Below, piece after piece: positions 949 to 45,265 of a DNA stretch of 52,944 nucleotides (within the stretch, counting starts at the first letter, position 1; each line of letters starts with the position of its first letter). Made by a program: the position numbers and the translations under genes. The notes under the pieces are model-generated. The model was not told the origin of the DNA. It searched no databases and saw nothing but the letters and a program-made list of their open reading frames with translations. Source of the stretch: an uncultured Prevotella sp. (GTDB taxonomy: Bacteria; Bacteroidota; Bacteroidia; Bacteroidales; Bacteroidaceae); contig ONLG01000021.1 of the NCBI GenBank assembly GCA_900318625.1, positions 1 to 52,944 on the forward strand, given 5' to 3'.

Positions 949-3306
949 TTACTCGGCACTGAGCTGCTGGTGCATATTTGCTGCGGCACGACGACCGTCG
1001 CCCATAGCGAGGATCACAGTGGCACCGCCGCGCACGATGTCGCCGCCGGCGAAGATGGCCTTGCGCGAACTCTGCATGTCGTCGCCCACGGCGATGGTGT
1101 TCTTGCGGCCCAACTCCAGTCCCTCGATGCTCTTCGGCACGAGCGGGTTGGGCGATACGCCGATGGCAACAACCACCTGGTCAACGTCCAGCGTGACGGT
1201 CTTTCCCTCAACGGGCACCGGCGAGCGGCGTCCGCTCTGGTCTGGCTCGCCCAGTTCCATCACCTGGAGCACGGCAGCCTTCACCGCACCCTGCTCGTCG
1301 GCCAGATACTCTATCGGGTTGTGCAGCGTGAGGAAGTTGATACCCTCCTCCTTGGCGTGCTTCACCTCTTCCAGGCGCGCCGGCATCTCGGCTTCGGAGC
1401 GGCGGTAGACGAGTGTCACCTCTGCACCAAGGCGCTTCGCCGTGCGGCACGAGTCCATAGCCGTGTTGCCGCCGCCTACTACGAGCACTTTCTTAGCCTC
1501 GTTGATGGGCGTGTCGGTCTTCGGGTTGGCTGCATCCATGAGGTTCACGCGAGTGAGATACTCGTTAGACGACATGATGTTGATGGCATTCTCGCCCGGG
1601 ATATTCATGAAGTTGGGCAGTCCGGCACCCGAAGCTACGAAGATTCCCTTGAAGCCTTGTGCCTCCAACTCGTCTACGCTGATGGTCTTTCCAACGATAA
1701 CGTCGGTCTGGAAGTGAACGCCCATCTTGCGCAGGTTGTCTATTTCCACGTCAACAATCTTGTTTGGCAGACGGAACTCGGGGATACCGTATTTCAGTAC
1801 GCCGCCAATCTCGTGCAGAGCCTCGAACACGTAGACGTCGTAGCCATGCTTCACCATGTCGCCGGCAAACGAAAGTCCGGCAGGACCGCTGCCAACCACG
1901 GCAATCTTCTTGCCGTTTGAGGGTTCAACCTCGGGCAGAGAGATGTTGCCGCTCTCGCGTTCGTAGTCGGCTGCGAAGCGTTCCAGATAGCCGATAGCCA
2001 CGGCAGGCTCGTTCATCTTCAGGTGGATGCATCGGCTTTCGCACTGCTTCTCCTGCGGGCAGACGCGTCCGCACACTGCAGGCAGGGCTGAAGTGGACTT
2101 CAGCACCTTGGCGGCAGCGAGGAACTCGCCGCGCTCTATGTTCTTTATGAACGAAGGAATGTTGATGTTCACGGGGCATCCCTCCACGCAGGTGGGCTTT
2201 GCACAGTCCAGACAACGCTTGGCCTCGGTGAGTGCCATCTCGGCGGTGAGTCCGATGTTCACCTCTTCGGTGCGTGTGGTAGCACGGTAGACAGGGTCGA
2301 GTTCGGGCATCTTCACGCGCTCAATCTGTGTGCGCTCCTTGGGTTTGAGGCTCTTGCGCAGAGCCGTGCGCCACTCGCTGTTGCGGTCGGTGAGCTCCTC
2401 GAGCGATGCTTCGGCCTTGTCGCCGGCTCCGGCAGCATTGCCTTTCTCGCCCTCAGCGGCCTTCTCGTCGCACGTGGGGCATACGTGCTCCTGGAAATGC
2501 TCCATCTCTTCCTGCTCGGCACGCTTGAATGTGCCCATGCGCTTGAACATTTCGTCCCAGTCGACGAGTGCTCCGTCGAATTCGGGACCGTCGATGCACA
2601 CGAACTTAGTCTTGCCGCCGATGGTCAGTCGGCAAGCTCCGCACATACCGGTGCCGTCTACCATGATGGTGTTCAGGCTCACGTCGGTCGGGATGTTGTA
2701 CTTCTGAGTGAGCAGACACGAGAACTTCATCATTATTGGAGGGCCAATGGCGAAGGCGCGGTCGATGTGTCCCTCCTGCTTGATGAACTTCTCTATACCT
2801 ACGGTCACTACGCCTTTCTCGCCGTAGGAGCCGTCGTCGGTCATTATGATCACCTCGTCGGAACTCTCGCGCACCTTGTCTTCCATGATTATCAGGTCCT
2901 TGCTGCGACCGGCCAGCACCGACAGCACGCGGTTGCCGGCTGCCTTCAGCGCCTGGATGATGGGCAGCATCGGAGCCACGCCCACGCCGCCACCGGCACA
3001 AATCACGGTTCCGAACTTCTCAATGTGGGTGGGGTTGCCGAGCGGTCCTACCACGTCGGCCACATAGTCGCCCTCGTTGAGGTTGCAAAGCTTGGTGGAA
3101 CTCAGTCCCACCTTCTGTACTACAAGCGTGATGGTGCCCTTGCTGGTGTCGGCTTCGGCTATGGTGAGCGGCATACGCTCGCCAAGCTTGTCAACGCGCA
3201 CTATCACAAAGTTGCCGGCCTTGCGGCTCTTGGCAATCAGCGGAGCCTCTACTTCGAGCAGAAATACCTTCTCGGAGAATTGCTCCTTGCGGACAATCTT
3301 ATTCAT
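949..3306 (-). CDS. Fused NfnBA-type oxidoreductase (DHODB electron-transfer-like plus glutamate-synthase small-subunit-like)
   Basis: A 785-residue fusion. The first ~260 residues are a ferredoxin-reductase/dihydroorotate dehydrogenase electron-transfer module with an FAD/NAD region (CAGGGVGVAPMLPI) and a [2Fe-2S] cysteine set (GMCGACRLTIGGKTKFVC). After a linker the C-terminal ~440 residues resemble the glutamate synthase beta chain, with cysteine clusters CLDCAKPTCVEGCP and CGRVCPQEKQCESRC, an FAD motif (GSGPAGLSFAGDM) and an NADPH motif (GGGNTAMDS). Separate homologues are NfnA/NfnB or SudA/SudB, which exchange electrons among NADH, NADPH and ferredoxin. The fused form is usually annotated as bifunctional 'DHODB NAD-binding subunit/NADPH-dependent glutamate synthase'. 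No large glutamate synthase subunit is nearby, so I favour an Nfn-like redox role. The start is the ATG at 3306; the open frame runs to 3381 but crosses the promoter. Confidence 0.88.
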   Translation of the reverse strand: MNKIVRKEQFSEKVFLLEVEAPLIAKSRKAGNFVIVRVDKLGERMPLTIAEADTSKGTITLVVQKVGLSSTKLCNLNEGDYVADVVGPLGNPTHIEKFGTVICAGGGVGVAPMLPIIQALKAAGNRVLSVLAGRSKDLIIMEDKVRESSDEVIIMTDDGSYGEKGVVTVGIEKFIKQEGHIDRAFAIGPPIMMKFSCLLTQKYNIPTDVSLNTIMVDGTGMCGACRLTIGGKTKFVCIDGPEFDGALVDWDEMFKRMGTFKRAEQEEMEHFQEHVCPTCDEKAAEGEKGNAAGAGDKAEASLEELTDRNSEWRTALRKSLKPKERTQIERVKMPELDPVYRATTRTEEVNIGLTAEMALTEAKRCLDCAKPTCVEGCPVNINIPSFIKNIERGEFLAAAKVLKSTSALPAVCGRVCPQEKQCESRCIHLKMNEPAVAIGYLERFAADYERESGNISLPEVEPSNGKKIAVVGSGPAGLSFAGDMVKHGYDVYVFEALHEIGGVLKYGIPEFRLPNKIVDVEIDNLRKMGVHFQTDVIVGKTISVDELEAQGFKGIFVASGAGLPNFMNIPGENAINIMSSNEYLTRVNLMDAANPKTDTPINEAKKVLVVGGGNTAMDSCRTAKRLGAEVTLVYRRSEAEMPARLEEVKHAKEEGINFLTLHNPIEYLADEQGAVKAAVLQVMELGEPDQSGRRSPVPVEGKTVTLDVDQVVVAIGVSPNPLVPKSIEGLELGRKNTIAVGDDMQSSRKAIFAGGDIVRGGATVILAMGDGRRAAANMHQQLSAE

Positions 3307-7000: not shown

Positions 7001-7529
7001 ACTTCCAGAACGCATAACTGCCGATTCTCGTCACGCTGTTGGGAATTACTAAATCCGTTATCTCAGTATTCTCGTCACTGTATATATGCTTAGCATAATA
7101 TAAAGGATTTGCATACTCACTGCCGAATGATATTTTGCACCAGGCTGCTATATCTGGAAAAATTACTTTTTTCAGGCCGCTACATTTATAGAACGCAGAA
7201 CCGCCGATGCTCGTCACGCTGTTGGGGATGGTGATAGAGGTCAGGGCTGTGCAGCCATAGAACGCCACCCCGCCGATGCTCGTCACACTGTAGGTCTTTC
7301 CGTCGTATGTAACCGACGAAGGAATGTTTACAGCACCAGTGTACTCGTTTGAATATGAATCGTAAGAGCTACCTCTGCAGGTTACGGCCAACTCCGTTTT
7401 GTTGTTGACATATTTATAATATATAAAAACTCCATCGTCGTTCTTAACGACGATGGAGTGGGCTGAGGTCCCAATGCCTACCATGCTCATGAGAACGGTT
7501 AGCAGAAATGTAAATTTAATGTGTTTCAT
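4086..7529 (-). CDS. BspA-like leucine-rich-repeat surface protein (giant)
   Basis: 1147 residues starting at the ATG at 7529, with a signal peptide (KFTFLLTVLMSMVGIGTSAHS). Most of the protein is LRR_5/BspA-type repeats of about 23 residues with the core 'ITIPNSVTSIGxxAFxGC'. A larger module (VIxPDIAAWC... IYSDENTEIxDLVIPNSV) recurs at least three times, and three nearly identical 23-residue units (NNGSIGAYAF) occur around 5150-5340. The end (IYDLNGRRRDAL...MSDGTTKKVVAK) is the short beta C-terminal tail common on secreted Prevotella proteins. BspA relatives bind host proteins or mediate adhesion; that role here is inference. Its start overlaps the 3' end of the HEPN gene by 14 bases, so the two are probably cotranscribed, although such proteins are normally unrelated to HEPN genes. 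Confidence 0.9.
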   Translation of the reverse strand: MKHIKFTFLLTVLMSMVGIGTSAHSIVVKNDDGVFIYYKYVNNKTELAVTCRGSSYDSYSNEYTGAVNIPSSVTYDGKTYSVTSIGGVAFYGCTALTSITIPNSVTSIGGSAFYKCSGLKKVIFPDIAAWCKISFGSEYANPLYYAKHIYSDENTEITDLVIPNSVTRIGSYAFWKCSGLTSITIPNSVTRIGESAFYGCSGLTSITIPNSVTSIGDDAFLYCSGLKKVIVPDIAAWCNISFGNYDANPLYYAKHIYSDENTEIKDLVIPNSVTTIRNYAFFGCGGLTSITIPNSVTSIGSNAFSECTGLTSITIPNSVKTIDYGAFRDCSSLTKVIVPDIAAWCKITFGDYYGNPLSYAAHIYSDENTEIKDLVIPNSVTRIGESAFYGCYGLTSIIIPNSVTSIGNYAFRGCSGLTSITIPNSVTSIGDKAFSGCGNLVSVEINSNAILSKSYTSSSSLVNIFGDQVQNYIIGNDVTTIGSGAFYGCSGLKSVTIGNSVTSIGSSVFYNTRLKSVTIGAGVLSISSDSFSYSDSSTGAKPVKVIWLTNTPPSGYGKVCGKVNYVANDLYKGLSNMTVYPFLSSMFETGGVKYVPVSPSERTCDAIDCVYDESAANVNIGKTLSYKGINMTVNNINTYTCYKNPFIKSADVSYNGSIGDYAFYGCGSLNNVTLSNNGDIGISAFESSNIASTLVVKNTGNIGEDAFRNITGSYTATISNSGSIGNNAFRGCIGMISATIENNGSIGAYAFQDNTGMISVTIENNGSIGAYAFQNNTSMISATIENNGSIGTYAFSGNTSLEKAILGDKVTSLGDYVFSGCSSLQGIDIPNGITQMGSYAFRNCSNMTSAKIGTGVTAINESTFSGCSALKDVQIGSNVRTIGNYVFSGCTSLPVINIPKAVTSIGNYTFQNCKALREVVMEDRADDTVLSLGSNGSSPMFASCPLDKVYIGRNISYNKTSNYGYSPFYRNTSLRSVTITDRETEVSENEFYGCTNLKEVKIGDGVTTIGSWAFSGCAAIDYFAFGSSVKTIGQEAFSDCTAMTRLISRAATPPSCGSQALDDINKWTCTLSVPAGSTSAYQAAAQWKEFFFIDNDVTGIEAVAAESVSNAEITDIYDLNGRRRDALQPGINIVKMSDGTTKKVVAK

Positions 7530-8022
7530 TATTAGTAATGTTATTTGATGGTTCATCATTTATGCGCTTTACTTCATTAACAAGTGATTTAAAACTATCA
7601 AAAGAGGTGAGTTCAACATATAGTGTTTGTTTCCAATTTTGTCCTTTCTTTTGGAAATCTTTAAGAATATAGGAGCTGTCTTTTTTGATAATATAATTAT
7701 GTGCAAACGCATTCCTTAAGTGGAAGAACCAATTCTTTACAATTTCCGTGTTTTCTCTTGCTGCATTTTCTTTTTTACTCTCTGCAGAGAAATAAAAGAC
7801 ATTTTCAACAGGAGACTCTATCTTATTTTCATAGTCTTTGTACTCGAATTTGAATTTGCTATTATCTTCAATATTCTTTGAAGCCTGTTTCAAAGATTCA
7901 ACTGTGCCAAAAGACTTTCTGTCACACTCAAAGTATAGTAAAATCTCCTCATAAAAGAACTTTATTTCTTCATCTGTTAAAATACATTCAGGAGAGCGAT
8001 GTGGTAATATGCTTCTACTCAT
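7516..8022 (-). CDS. HEPN-domain protein (putative RNase or RNA-binding)
   Basis: 168 residues, AT-rich and unlike the flanking core genes. A helix carries FFHLRNAFAHNY, which fits the HEPN signature R-x4-6-H with the typical Arg-Asn pair (RNAFAH, near residue 110). HEPN proteins are often metal-independent RNases in toxin-antitoxin, abortive-infection and CRISPR systems; some are non-catalytic. The rest is helical and charged, ending in KRINDEPSNNITNNETH. The start overlaps the stop of an upstream frameshifted ORF by 8 bases and the stop overlaps the BspA start by 14, a tightly packed transcription unit. I cannot name the subfamily; the call rests on the motif and length. Confidence 0.65.
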   Translation of the reverse strand: MSRSILPHRSPECILTDEEIKFFYEEILLYFECDRKSFGTVESLKQASKNIEDNSKFKFEYKDYENKIESPVENVFYFSAESKKENAARENTEIVKNWFFHLRNAFAHNYIIKKDSSYILKDFQKKGQNWKQTLYVELTSFDSFKSLVNEVKRINDEPSNNITNNETH

Positions 8023-8235
8023 TATTCAAACTAATTTGATTTGACACTTCAATAATTTCTTTATCCTCAACATTTGCTAAGCCACTAATCATAGCTTTTT
8101 TTATAGCATAGTTATTTCCTTCGTAAAGCCTATACTGAATTTCACCTTGATTTTCTCACGTAATGTTTCTTTATACTTAGGCAGTGAGGAATTCCTGCCC
8201 GTTGAAATCGTGTTTAAATCTCTACCTATACACAT
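8015..8235 (-). pseudogene. Frameshifted small gene upstream of the HEPN gene
   Basis: Two minus-strand frames join into one protein of about 74 residues. The first, from the ATG at 8235 behind AAGGAAAAAG, reads MCIGRDLNTISTGRNSSLPK and on to YKETLREK. The second reads QGEIQYRLYEGNNYAIKKAM and continues to ISLNNE, stopping at 8015-8017. A single A lost from an A5 run near 8152-8155 (GAGAAAATC for GAGAAAAATC) would restore one frame, so this looks like a recent frameshift or a sequencing error. Its stop overlaps the HEPN ATG by 8 bases, indicating former translational coupling. I do not recognise the family. An antitoxin-like or partner role is only a guess from position. A programmed shift is less likely because no canonical slippery heptamer is present. 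Confidence 0.5.
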
Positions 8236-8306
8236 AATAGTAACTTTTTCCTTGCCTACCGCTTCCCCCTGCTTCGGCGGTTAATAGATTGTTTAGGTGT
8301 GGAAAC

Positions 8307-8638
8307 AAAAAAGACGTGGGAGAAGCCTTCCATTGCTTATCCCACACTCCGGCTCTCGCATTGCCTAATCCAAGGATAAGCAACTAAGCCAGCCCACGCC
8401 ATCGCGTATTATATATAGGTATGCTAACAAACCAGTTGTGGCTTGCACACATACGGGTATAATACACCCAGCATGGACGCCTCGTTGCGTTTATCTTCTT
8501 GGATTTGTCAGAGTTGCGAGATCTGAGTGTAGAAGATAACGTTCGAAAACGTCCTTTTAGAGTCCCGTCCGCAGAGCGGAAAGACTCTGTTCCATAATGT
8601 TATGACCCGCCCTCCACACGCTTGGGCTGGCATAGTCT
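8307..8638 (-). ncRNA. Candidate structured noncoding RNA or leader, about 330 nt, family unknown
   Basis: The minus strand has a perfect promoter just upstream, an intrinsic terminator at its end and several strong helices. The closing stem pairs 8384-8396 with 8623-8635 (12 pairs, one mismatch; core GCCAGCCCA). A two-part hairpin pairs 8559-8564/8583-8588 and 8568-8572/8576-8580. Another stem pairs 8491-8499 with 8531-8539 (9 bp). The 3' terminator pairs 8316-8321/8340-8345 and 8323-8326/8335-8338, followed by six T. An alternative 10-bp pairing of 8333-8342 with 8374-8383 (TTGCTTATCC) excludes the terminator, so the RNA may act as an attenuating leader of the frameshifted gene and HEPN gene. 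No RNase P, tmRNA, SRP or 6S hallmark was found. It could be a trans-acting RNA instead. Confidence 0.6.
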
Positions 8639-8642
8639 GTGA

Positions 8643-8673
8643 CAAAGATAGGAATAATCAATAATAGAGCAAA
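8643..8673 (-). promoter_or_regulatory. Consensus promoter of the structured RNA
   Basis: On the minus strand TTTG (8670-8673), exactly 19 bases, TATCTTTG (8643-8650). This is as good a match to the Bacteroidota consensus as any in the window. Transcription should begin near 8636-8640, at the base of the closing helix of the RNA. Confidence 0.8.
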
Positions 8674-8733
8674 GGAAAAAGGGAATTTTATTTCTCGGAG
8701 AAAGGTAGGTAGTGAGTAGGTTGTAATAAAATA

Positions 8734-8783
8734 GTTAAGCCAGTGGTCGTCGGAGAATGATTCCGGGCAACCATTGGCTTAAC
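8734..8783 (-). terminator. Hairpin downstream of idh, probable terminator
   Basis: Arms 8734-8746 (GTTAAGCCAGTGG) and 8771-8783 form 13 pairs with one G-T wobble and an inner CGGA/TCCG stem. On the minus strand TATTTTATT follows. It probably ends the idh transcript. The arm GTTAAGCCA also begins the 28-bp idh-end repeat at 8814, so a role as recombinase arms is conceivable. Confidence 0.55.
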
Positions 8784-8813
8784 TTATGTTTAGGGAGTGC
8801 TGACTAAGCAGTT

Positions 8814-36667: not shown

Positions 36668-36691
36668 CGCATATAAATATGGTGTGATTAT

Positions 36692-36780
36692 ACTTCCTTT
36701 TCCCTACGGCGGCATTACCCGCATCAGGTTATATGGGTATCATCTCAGCCGCCTCTCATGCTGAAAGGCAGCACCCCAAG
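36692..36780 (-). promoter_or_regulatory. TPP riboswitch (thi box)
   Basis: On the minus strand: GGGGTGC at the start, CTGAGATGATACCC, AACCTGATGCGGGTAATGCC and a closing GTAGGGA, the complete thi-box core. It precedes thiSEGCFH and the following genes and should shut the operon off when thiamin pyrophosphate is plentiful. Confidence 0.95.
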
Positions 36781-36794
36781 TGAATTTTCTGGTG

Positions 36795-42849: not shown

Positions 42850-42991
42850 CTTACAATTGATATATTCTCACTTTTAGTTAACATAAATAATTATGCCTAT
42901 GATTTAAAGAAAACTCAAAAGACATATAGAAATTGAAGCGTCCGCTTAATTCTTGTTTCTCAAAATTCGCCAAATTTAAAGAAACACACAA

Positions 42992-43037
42992 GAGTAAAAG
43001 CAAGGATGCTCACGCTGTATAGCGTGGGCTTTTACTC
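42992..43037 (+). terminator. Long hairpin terminator after the PBP gene
   Basis: GAGTAAAAGC (42992-43001) pairs with GCTTTTACTC (43028-43037), with an inner CACGCT/AGCGTG stem. It sits in the 317-base gap before the second BspA-like gene; the rest of that gap shows no promoter I can defend. Confidence 0.65.
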
Positions 43038-43165
43038 GTTGAAGTGTGTTGGGTGTTTGGCGATACCTTGAGAAACGTAGACGAAGTTTTAGTCCGCGTT
43101 TTCTTTTTCTGTCTATTCAAGCCAAGGACTATCAACTTATTATTCATTTTAAAAACATTATTAGC

Positions 43166-45265
43166 ATGAAAAAGTATTTATTGGCAGCACTGCTATTTGT
43201 GTCAGCAGTAAATTTCTATGCTGCAGATTTTAATCAAGATGGTTTGTATTACAACATAAAGTCGTTAACAGACCTGACAGTAGAACTTGTTGCTCCCGAC
43301 TACGGACACTACAATGGTAATATAACGGTTCCAAGGACGGTAGAATACCTGTCGCGTACCTTCAAAGTGACTGGCATTAACTCAGAAGCTTTTAGTGGTT
43401 GCGACATCGCAACTTTGTCTATTCAAGATAATATTATAAGCGTTGGCAACCTAAATTTTGGCAATGTAAAGGAATTCCGAATTGAAGACGGTGACGAGCC
43501 TTTGAAAATAGAAAAAGATAAAGAATATTGGTATTGGAACAACTATGAAGATATGTCTGTATATATTGGGCGAGATATATCGCCTGATATGAATCGTTTA
43601 GAAGGTTTCAAAGGTATGTCTGGTGCAACGGCTGTAGAGTTCGGCTCAAAAGTAACAGAAATACCCCGAGATTTGTTTTGGGAGTGTAATACGCTCGCCA
43701 CTGTAATCATTCCAGATAATGTAAAAACCATTGGAAGCTATGCTTTTGAAGGAACGTCAATTAGTTCTATTCAGGCTTTAGGAGTGACCACAATAGGAAG
43801 CGGAGCGTTCGAAGACTGTGATAAACTAAAGCAAGCTAAGTTTTCAGAAGCTTTAGAAGAAATTAATGGCTATGCTTTTTACAGCAGCGCAATAGAGGAG
43901 TTCATACTTCCTGCTAATTCTCATGCACTGAAGCTAATTGACTATCATGCTTTTGATGGTTGCACTTCTCTGAAGTCGTTTGTTATTCCCGAAGGTGTTT
44001 GCTATCTTGGTTATTTTGCTTTCAGCGGTTGCACCAGCCTTGAGACTGTTAAGATTCCGAATAGTGTTTATGATTTTGGCAACTTCTCTGGTGAATATGA
44101 TAATCGAATAGGCAATGTTTTCAAAGGTTGTAGTGCTTTAAAGACAATTATCGTAGGGCACGAAGCCCCTGTTAAGATATGGGAAAACACGTTTGACGCG
44201 GCTACTTACATATCAGCCACTCTGAAAGTGCCTGCAGGAACAAAGGACAAATATCTGAGTGCAGACAATTGGAAGAATTTTTTCAATATAGAGGAAGATG
44301 CAACGATAGCTGATAATATATGTACAGTAGGTATCAGTGTCGACAAATACTCCTATGGCGGAGAAGTTTCTGTTGAGGCGATAGGCGGCTTAGGTGAATG
44401 GTATGATCATCAGGCTGGCCAAAATCTGATAGTAGCTCCCAAAGGGGCTAAGATTAAACTAAAGATAGGACCTTATGATAGTTATAAACTGACTTCGTTG
44501 CTTGTCAATGGTGAAGAGGTCATATCTGCTGTTGTCCGCAACGAGTATGTTATGGAAGTGACTGGAACAATGGAATTAAAGATAATACCAACCTATGAAT
44601 ACTACTATTACCAAACAATACGTACCGAGGAGGCTTCATTCAAAGAGCAGGCTGACGGTTCTGTTGGTATTACTGAGGTTGAGGATGGCGTAAAGGAGTA
44701 TGCAATACCAGAGACCGTTGCCGATTATAGCGGGACAACATATACCGTGGCTTCTATTGAGAACAGTGCCTTTGAGGATAATTCCGAACTAACATCTGTT
44801 TCAATCCCTGCTACAATAACTTATATTGACGATCACGCTTTCGCAGGATGCACTAATCTTGAGGCTATCTATGTTTATAGCGAGGAACCAATAGAATTGC
44901 CTGTCGCATCCCATGCTGTTGAAGCCTCCAGAAAGGCACCCCGATCTGAAGCTGCCGACTCAGAAGTTGACGATATATTTGTATTTGAGGGAGTTAATAA
45001 GGAGTCATGCAAGCTATACGTCCCCAAAGGATGTGTAGAAAAGTACAGAAATGCTGCTGGATGGAATGAATTTAAGCAGATCTTAGAAATAAACACGACG
45101 GGCATAGAGTCTGTCATCAGTCCGGCAAACAGCAATTCGCTAACCGATAAAGCCTGGTATACCCTCGATGGTAGGCAGTTGCATAAAGGCCAGTACACTG
45201 CTGGTAATGGCAAGCTCTCTAAGGGAATCTATATTAGTAGGGGTAAGAAAGTAGTAGTTAAATAA
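43166..45265 (+). CDS. BspA-like leucine-rich-repeat secreted protein, second copy
   Basis: 699 residues from the ATG at 43166 (MKKYLLAALLFVSAVNFYAA, signal peptide); the open frame upstream has no family match. Degenerate LRR_5 repeats (VTTIGSGAFEDCDKL, VTGINSEAFSGCDI, ITYIDDHAFAGCTNL) surround a middle segment of about 100 residues without repeats (near 395-500). The end (YTLDGRQLHK...LSKGIYISRGKKVVVK) is the short beta tail shared with the first BspA-like protein. AT-rich relative to neighbours. Likely surface or secreted and adhesive; substrate unknown. Confidence 0.88.
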   Translation: MKKYLLAALLFVSAVNFYAADFNQDGLYYNIKSLTDLTVELVAPDYGHYNGNITVPRTVEYLSRTFKVTGINSEAFSGCDIATLSIQDNIISVGNLNFGNVKEFRIEDGDEPLKIEKDKEYWYWNNYEDMSVYIGRDISPDMNRLEGFKGMSGATAVEFGSKVTEIPRDLFWECNTLATVIIPDNVKTIGSYAFEGTSISSIQALGVTTIGSGAFEDCDKLKQAKFSEALEEINGYAFYSSAIEEFILPANSHALKLIDYHAFDGCTSLKSFVIPEGVCYLGYFAFSGCTSLETVKIPNSVYDFGNFSGEYDNRIGNVFKGCSALKTIIVGHEAPVKIWENTFDAATYISATLKVPAGTKDKYLSADNWKNFFNIEEDATIADNICTVGISVDKYSYGGEVSVEAIGGLGEWYDHQAGQNLIVAPKGAKIKLKIGPYDSYKLTSLLVNGEEVISAVVRNEYVMEVTGTMELKIIPTYEYYYYQTIRTEEASFKEQADGSVGITEVEDGVKEYAIPETVADYSGTTYTVASIENSAFEDNSELTSVSIPATITYIDDHAFAGCTNLEAIYVYSEEPIELPVASHAVEASRKAPRSEAADSEVDDIFVFEGVNKESCKLYVPKGCVEKYRNAAGWNEFKQILEINTTGIESVISPANSNSLTDKAWYTLDGRQLHKGQYTAGNGKLSKGIYISRGKKVVVK

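Follow-up and report, generated by a model that had tools for sequence, protein, structure and literature searches.

Terminator-type riboswitches and attenuators are long structured leaders that follow a promoter, contain competing helices and end in a terminator-like stem with a U-run. With regard to Bacteroidota, Rfp18 is a structured sRNA conserved in Flavobacterium, which the consulted sections of its report describe as transcribed on its own and as having several mRNA targets; its third stem-loop is predicted to pair with the mRNAs of metalloproteases and of a putative secreted adhesin, and when it is deleted, two metalloprotease mRNAs become less abundant in stationary phase (PMC9723704). 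In Bacteroides thetaiotaomicron, FopS/GibS constitute a multi-copy family of paralogous sRNAs, of which FopS, about 65-70 nt long, is presented in the consulted text as a single-stranded 5' stretch followed by a terminator hairpin, and acts on SusC-like mRNAs (PMC11697453). The motifs reported for the phylum by Weinberg in 2010 include Bacteroidales-1 and Flavo-1, for which Table 1 of that paper gives the accessions RF01693 and RF01705 (PMC2864571), and a 108-bp Bacteroidetes candidate, HMP2_1881, has been noted near radical SAM domains (PMC8040213, consulted in part). According to the part of PMC9976891 consulted, Bacteroidota fail to recognise Shine-Dalgarno sequences.

The RNA family examined here resembles terminator-type riboswitches and attenuators in its structured leader, its strand-sharing helices and the gene that follows at once downstream. 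Unlike them, it carries a leader segment 3' of the terminator that pairs with the terminator's own strand, belongs to no Rfam class, has no common target pathway and does not end in a U-run in every copy. It shares with Rfp18 of Flavobacterium psychrophilum the phylum, a strong structure and predicted pairing with mRNAs, a likeness drawn from the description in the consulted part of PMC9723704 only. Like FopS/GibS, it is multi-copy in Bacteroidales, but FopS is much shorter and the consulted text describes no multi-pseudoknot core for it (PMC11697453). It is, like the 2010 motifs, a computationally found structured RNA of the phylum and differs from Bacteroidales-1 and Flavo-1, as far as the consulted part of PMC2864571 defines them, in that Rfam 15 scans gave no match, both models being assumed present in the copy scanned. 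HMP2_1881 could be a fragment of this RNA, judging from the part of PMC8040213 consulted. No paper in the literature consulted describes the motif; the consulted parts of PMC8040213, PMC2864571 and PMC6429828 name no such motif, and PMC8632094 has no occurrence of four taxon terms.

The window, that is, the whole stretch of DNA analysed, comprises 52,944 nucleotides of a contig from an uncultured Prevotella sp. On its minus strand, the RNA starts at about 8637 and ends with the T6 run at 8312-8307 (Table 1). The initial annotation had described a structured RNA outside known classes, with its own promoter and a terminator, and had suggested a partnership with a HEPN gene; the description of the RNA was borne out, the partnership was not. 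A Bacteroidetes-type promoter, TTTG-N19-TATCTTTG, lies at 8673-8643 as proposed. The RNA folds with a minimum free energy of -133 kcal/mol (z = -6.8), a value that 0 of 100 shuffled sequences reached, and contains the further hairpins that had been noted; the P5 stem is followed by the T6 run described. The long-range closing helix placed between 8384-8396 and 8623-8635 pairs at 12 of 13 positions over that span by eye; the exact strands of this helix, P10, are 8637-8624 and 8395-8384, with an own-pair duplex energy of -25.3 kcal/mol. Both the closing helix and the terminator stem are thus present, but P10 and P5 use the same GGG and therefore cannot both form in full.

In the Rfam 15 covariance scan at gathering score, no family matched the RNA at 8307-8637(-) or its fetched relatives, and a permissive scan of the same interval returned weak matches only, far under their gathering scores. 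The RNA is thereby no member of the known Rfam families (RNase P, tmRNA, SRP, 6S, known riboswitches), in agreement with the first reading, which had found no familiar class. Gathering-level matches fell elsewhere only, namely a TPP riboswitch at 36684-36788 (minus strand) of the window, a piece of a group II intron (L328) and a tRNA (L352). A strong inverted repeat at 8732-8787, in the interval between icd and the RNA promoter, is perhaps the icd terminator and drew weak microRNA matches only.

Table 1. Features of the RNA locus and of the second family member in the window.
Feature	Position	Strand	Basis
Promoter, Bacteroidetes-type, TTTG-N19-TATCTTTG	8643..8673	-	sequence
Strand 1, GACTATGCCAGCCC at the transcript 5' end; forms P10 with strand 2 or P0 with the local stretch 8612-8604, which ends in GGGCGGGTC	8624..8637	-	duplex tests
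Conserved RNA core	8307..8559	-	model R1 match, 228.8 bits in own genome
5' domain: P1 (8554-8547/8482-8475), P2 (8537-8532/8498-8493), P3 (8525-8522/8512-8509)	8475..8554	-	alignments
PK1 5' strand UCUCGCA, in the P3 loop	8515..8521	-	alignments
P4 and variable apical region, stem 8465-8458/8413-8406	8406..8465	-	28-sequence alignment
P5 5' strand GGCGTGGG (P5: 8400-8393/8320-8313)	8393..8400	-	alignments, duplex test
Strand 2, GGGCTGGCTTAG (J5/6), P10 partner of strand 1; its GGG also in P5	8384..8395	-	duplex tests
GUUGC, partner of GCAAC at 8488-8484 (P8)	8380..8384	-	broad alignment, 3 of 5 pairs counted
P6 (8381-8373/8343-8335) and P7 (8365-8363/8353-8351)	8335..8381	-	28-sequence alignment
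PK1 3' strand UGCGAGA, in the P7 loop	8354..8360	-	alignments
Strand 3, GGCTTCTCCC, PK2 with the leader (PK2: 8327-8318/8269-8261); its CCC also in P5	8318..8327	-	duplex tests
P5 3' strand CCCACGTC	8313..8320	-	alignment
T6 run, intrinsic-terminator-like, immediately 3' of P5	8307..8312	-	sequence
Leader hairpin GCCGAAGCAGGGGGAAGCGGTAGGC, between terminator and gene	8254..8278	-	sequence
Strand 4, GGGGGAAGC, forms PK2 with strand 3 over 9 bp, one of them G-U	8261..8269	-	duplex test
First downstream ORF, 44 aa, broken; starts at 8235	8101..8235	-	sequence
168-aa protein, HEPN-like R-x4-H motif (HLRNAFAHN; H-x-RN-x-FAH)	7516..8022	-	sequence
Second, short-form family member	42931..43106	+	R3 match, 71.4 bits
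BspA-type LRR gene, ATG 59 nt after the second RNA	43166..45265	+	Pfam LRR_5, 4.1e-50

The alignments show a conserved core of two predicted helical arms, P1-P3 and P5-P7, joined by a loop-loop pseudoknot, PK1, formed between the P3 and P7 loops, with a variable tip on P4. In the alignment of 28 sequences, 96.8% of the cells are paired and the covariation score reaches 0.223 versus 0.157 in shuffled alignments; the number of further pair types is not above shuffles in this set (194 of 500 reach the value). The two outermost pairs of PK1 switch jointly from UC/GA to CU/AG in all seven changing sequences and are broken in none of the 28. A broad alignment of 29 sequences, fitted to a model that leaves PK1 and P8 outside, has changes on both sides in 43 of 55 pairs and a covariation score of 0.482, versus 0.235 when shuffled and 0.075-0.125 when slid; PK1 is 100% paired in this set, and three of its seven pairs change on both sides. 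The compensatory changes in homologues that had been named beforehand as a check are thus present in both alignments. In short forms of the RNA, PK1 varies at many positions (for instance UCUGGUAA/UUACCAGA and UCUACCAAA/UUUGGUAGA), and its own pairs were matched by 0 of 2000 permutations in 22 short forms and by 0 of 2000 in phylum-level copies (18 of 20 used), as against 1836 and 443 of 2000 for the control windows. The core is also aptamer-like, as in riboswitches, with unpaired positions that are conserved. A conserved upstream ORF inside the RNA, starting from the AUG in GGCAAUGCGA, was considered and set aside, its frames seeming to differ between loci (by eye, without a count).

A BLASTN search of 150 congeneric genomes placed relatives in 69, counting the own genome; a single genome gave at most 6 matching pieces, and two conserved blocks flank a variable middle. 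The covariance model R1, built from the 28-sequence alignment, matches 279 of 398 sampled congeneric genomes (115 of the 175 good ones) and 50 of 295 genomes of the order, own genome included in both samples. Within the phylum sample of 296 genomes it matches only the own genome, which also speaks for its specificity. Named carriers confirmed by R1, among the pattern matches listed, include Bacteroides bouchesdurhonensis, Bacteroides caecigallinarum, Barnesiella sp. An55, Paraprevotella clara and Xylanibacter rarus. A broader model, R2, matches 45 of 198 genomes of the order, own included, and brought to light shorter forms, about 165-185 nt long. Built from 22 of these, two of them near-identical copies, R3 matches 69 of the 198 order genomes and 32 of the 296 phylum genomes, own included each time, the latter comprising other families of the class and five genomes of other classes. 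The E-values of these models are rough owing to a short calibration, and the fetched loci are mostly best-scoring places and not a random draw.

R3 also recognises the long form at 8307-8559 (48.8 bits), which together with its score for the short copy links the two forms. This second copy in the window has, by eye, UCGCCAAA/UUUGGCGA as PK1 and UAGUCC (43090-43095)/GGACUA (43126-43131) as PK2. The own genome contains three long copies according to R1, and twelve carriers counted in full, chosen among genomes with matches, have 9, 2, 8, 2, 1, 18, 14, 7, 10, 10, 9 and 5 copies; scans of many genomes score 4 to 13 candidates per genome, so that copy numbers from such scans are lower bounds. Phage records gave no match to the RNA, and four of six pattern matches on contigs labelled viral were confirmed by R1 (L306, L307, L309, L311). 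R1 likewise confirms two matches whose bins carry the labels Firmicutes and Clostridia (L237, L261) and whose contigs may be misbinned. The pattern matches L197, L255 and L256, from bins assigned to Spongiibacteraceae, 'Bordetella' and Kiloniellaceae, did not reach an R1 E-value of 0.01 and were taken as chance.

The position of the RNA is that of a leader. Counts were made on 187 distinct loci, since the set of 192 held five duplicates. An ORF of at least 60 aa starts 40-95 nt 3' of the RNA at 146 of 186 distinct loci, compared with 8 of 177 for the control on the opposite side and strand. The -7 element TAnnTTTG is found within 150 nt upstream at 172 of 183 distinct loci versus 40 of 525 in-gene windows, and the 60-nt leader after the RNA holds a promoter element at 4 of 170 loci versus 20 of 720 in-gene windows, hence no excess. 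With a promoter element upstream and none in excess in the leader, the downstream gene most likely depends on transcription through the RNA. The family thus lies between promoter and start codon, at a constrained distance, before a co-oriented gene and without extra promoters, the order in most loci being P5, U-run, short leader and start codon. Elements of the GCC...GGC type that resemble the leader hairpin at 8254-8278 are seen by eye at other loci of the family too.

Four predicted helices share strands within this arrangement: P0 and P10 both use the 5' end, P10 and P5 the GGG, and P5 and PK2 the CCC. Each was assessed with RNAduplex by comparing every locus's own segment pair with pairs mixed between loci, in 170 of the 192 loci, those left out being repeats or loci without recognisable promoter or anchor. 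In the 92 genus-type and 78 other loci, respectively, own pairs gave t = -11.1 and -4.4 for P10, -3.6 and -6.9 for P0, -2.2 and -6.1 for P5, and -5.9 and -6.0 for PK2, compared with -1.7 and -0.7, and -0.8 and +1.2, for two control pairings; all t values assume that the loci are independent, an assumption that related loci violate. Covariation of P5 is weak in the genus set, where this helix hardly varies. Windows moved along the 5' region for P10 (starts 0 to 30, n = 170; a first scan had used 154 of the 192 loci) yielded t = -5.4, -10.6, -10.4, -2.7, -0.4, -1.3 and -2.0, peaking in windows 5-20 and 10-25, the two that cover the helix; P10 is thus locus-specific across 170 loci and therefore not a matter of chance. 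With regard to PK2, 18 windows of the RNA were scanned against the leader in up to 185 of the 192 loci, and the two that contain CUCCC gave t = -10.8 and -8.9, the remaining 16 reaching at most |t| = 1.9. In a full permutation covering 98 of 100 fetched loci, 0 of 2000 permutations equalled the own PK2 pairs overall, 0 of 2000 in the 58 genus-type and 1 of 2000 in the 40 other loci, and 0 of 2000 in the short forms and in the phylum forms each.

Together, these tests show helices that are predicted to compete for shared strands, P0 with P10 for the 5' end, P10 with P5 for J5/6, and P5 with PK2 for the CUCCC strand. The family thus appears to possess mutually exclusive helices, one of them a terminator, albeit weakly for P5 in the genus set, and mutually exclusive helices kept by evolution are the signature of a switch. 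Among the 92 genus-type loci, 66 have a T run of at least four after P5, and among the 78 others 68 do; its absence from the remaining 26 and 10 indicates that intrinsic termination cannot be the sole mechanism. Pseudoknot-free folding does not single out either state: when forced, P10 lies on average 18.3 kcal/mol and P5 15.7 kcal/mol above the unconstrained minimum, P10 is lower in energy than P5 in only 22 of 77 loci, and the median difference is 2.3 kcal/mol in favour of P5 (interquartile range -1.5 to 6.4; below 5 kcal/mol in 40 of 77 loci). This comparison covers 77 of the 92 loci and is biased towards P10, loci with a weak P10 or without a P5 anchor having been dropped.

We therefore consider it fairly probable that the RNA is a cis-acting 5'-leader of the downstream unit, belonging to a Bacteroidota-wide multi-copy family and working as a conformational switch. 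The lack of a promoter excess in the leader and the locus-specific pairing between RNA and leader point to a leader of the downstream gene and not to a HEPN partner. In such a switch, a signal (small molecule, protein or RNA) would stabilise the core, so that P0 and P5 form; with P5 formed, transcription would stop at the U-run and leave an RNA of about 330 nt. If strand 1 instead took strand 2 to form P10, P5 would not be fully formed and RNA polymerase would read through. PK2, joining the terminator strand and the leader, would hold P5 open and expose or remodel the start-codon region. It can form only once the terminator has been transcribed, and therefore cannot act as a classical antiterminator; given the loci that lack a T run of at least four, control may also act on translation through PK2. 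The sequence evidence covers the competing helices and the cis position; the direction of control, termination itself and the signal are our inference. Typical targets would be exported and accessory genes, with some defence genes among them.

A stand-alone base-pairing regulator, released at the U-run and using its CUCCC strand to pair with adjacent and distant mRNA leaders, like an sRNA in trans, is in our view unlikely. In its favour are the RNA's own promoter and its end, which resembles a terminator, and the pairing of the PK2 strand with the leader; Rfp18 provides a precedent in Flavobacterium, as far as the consulted part of PMC9723704 describes it. Furthermore, nine fetched copies from genomes of two families look stand-alone (L342, L344, L347, L350, L351 and L355 of f124; L345, L348 and L354 of f123): a promoter element lies 17-22 nt upstream of them, and in most cases no gene follows closely. 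Seven of these nine contain, by eye, GAGUUCC in the pairing segment. They are possibly a trans-acting branch, and they recall Rfp18, compared by description only in the consulted part of PMC9723704. However, the pairing in Bacteroidales is locus-specific, which fits action in cis better than in trans, and the leader shows no promoter excess. A search for trans targets in eight genomes of f124 (GGAACTCA shortly before ATGAAA) found 22 matches versus 10 for a reversed-order seed and 11 for a backward control; since 19 of the 22 lie inside open frames, this gives no support for trans targets.

It is still less probable that the RNA represents an element, mobile or catalytic (ribozyme-like or associated with recombination), by which a promoter reaches new genes. 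Its multiple copies and diverse neighbours would fit such an element, as would copies in tandem or in pairs: L323 holds two short forms in tandem at 2501-2878 (minus strand), 44 nt apart, and L329 two near-identical short copies at 1250-2542 (plus strand), which begin about 1.1 kb from each other and are followed by related genes. Among 40 genomes compared, seven had icd at threshold, and the RNA is absent from the fetched icd flank in three congeneric ones; the flanks themselves differ, so that no insertion is shown and no clean empty site was found there. Moreover, the copies keep a narrow distance from the start codon, and certain RNA-gene pairs occur at more than one locus, suggesting that RNA and gene were inherited together.

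The genes that follow the RNA are diverse. The initial annotation had correctly noted a frameshifted small ORF on the same strand, a 44-aa piece from 8235 whose continuation is open in another frame up to 8015 (-), and, further on, a HEPN gene. That gene does encode a 168-aa protein on the same strand with an R-x4-H motif, which we take to be HEPN-like on account of this motif; no Pfam or PADLOC match was found for it. Homologues of the RNA do not in general adjoin the same genes, the check that had been suggested: the 179 first genes, taken from the set of 192 loci with its five duplicates, fall into 119 clusters, and HEPN-like genes follow the RNA at 6 of 187 distinct loci (the window and five others, with related proteins), so that no consistent HEPN adjacency is observed. 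That RNA and HEPN protein form a defence or toxin-antitoxin module is accordingly most improbable, for beyond these six loci with related HEPN-like proteins, secreted and other genes are equally tied to the RNA, and a PADLOC scan of five of the six HEPN-like proteins gave no match.

First genes after the RNA code for BspA-type LRR proteins, lipoproteins, CXXX-type RiPP precursors, C10 peptidases, LytTR proteins, small HTH proteins, AbiH, DUF2971 proteins and others. Three profile scans, whose family lists cover the first 25 of 70, 62 and 45 families, were run on 150 of the 173 non-redundant first genes, the 23 others being mostly short. Among the matches listed are 11 to LRR_5, 7 to the CXXX RiPP precursor family, 4 to dockerin, 3 each to LytTR and DUF2971, 2 to peptidase C10 and 1 to AbiH and, for candidate defence models, 3 to PDC-S31 and single ones to SspB, type III methyltransferase, MAD6 or PD-T4-6. 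Exported proteins are over-represented among first genes by a heuristic signal-peptide rule of our own, satisfied by 93 of 169 (55%) versus 80 of 271 background genes (30%; Fisher p = 1.5e-7), the background being genes of at least 100 aa from the longer loci only.

Genes for CXXX-type RiPP precursors, which form one cluster, repeatedly follow the RNA, some with a radical SAM gene next (L006, L010, L011, L023, L098, L220, L235, L250, L251, L261). A small helix-turn-helix-like family, named by eye, provides the first gene in L219, L221, L238 and L265; these proteins are possible autoregulated regulators. No shared pathway emerges from the 119 clusters or the family lists, which is not typical of metabolite riboswitches; among signalling riboswitches, too, there are some with diverse target genes.

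With regard to its broader meaning, the sequences look like those of a structured-RNA family absent from Rfam, switch-like, and placed before many different genes of Bacteroidota. A further step, which we put forward tentatively and hold somewhat less likely than its converse, is that a phylum-wide riboswitch-like class, with long and short forms, senses a single global signal, which might be a second messenger or a metabolite linked to the envelope or to stress, and that, through an attenuator which the target gene's own leader locks, it governs surface, secreted, RiPP and defence genes as one dispersed regulon. Bacteroidota dominate gut and rumen, and little is known about RNA regulation in this phylum. 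If the cis-acting switch proves true, an RNA switch before up to 18 dispersed genes per genome would represent a global regulon that an Rfam scan misses. Its competing helices with locus-specific complementarity would make the mechanism directly testable by compensatory mutants, and the signal of the switch would pose a new question in bacterial signalling.
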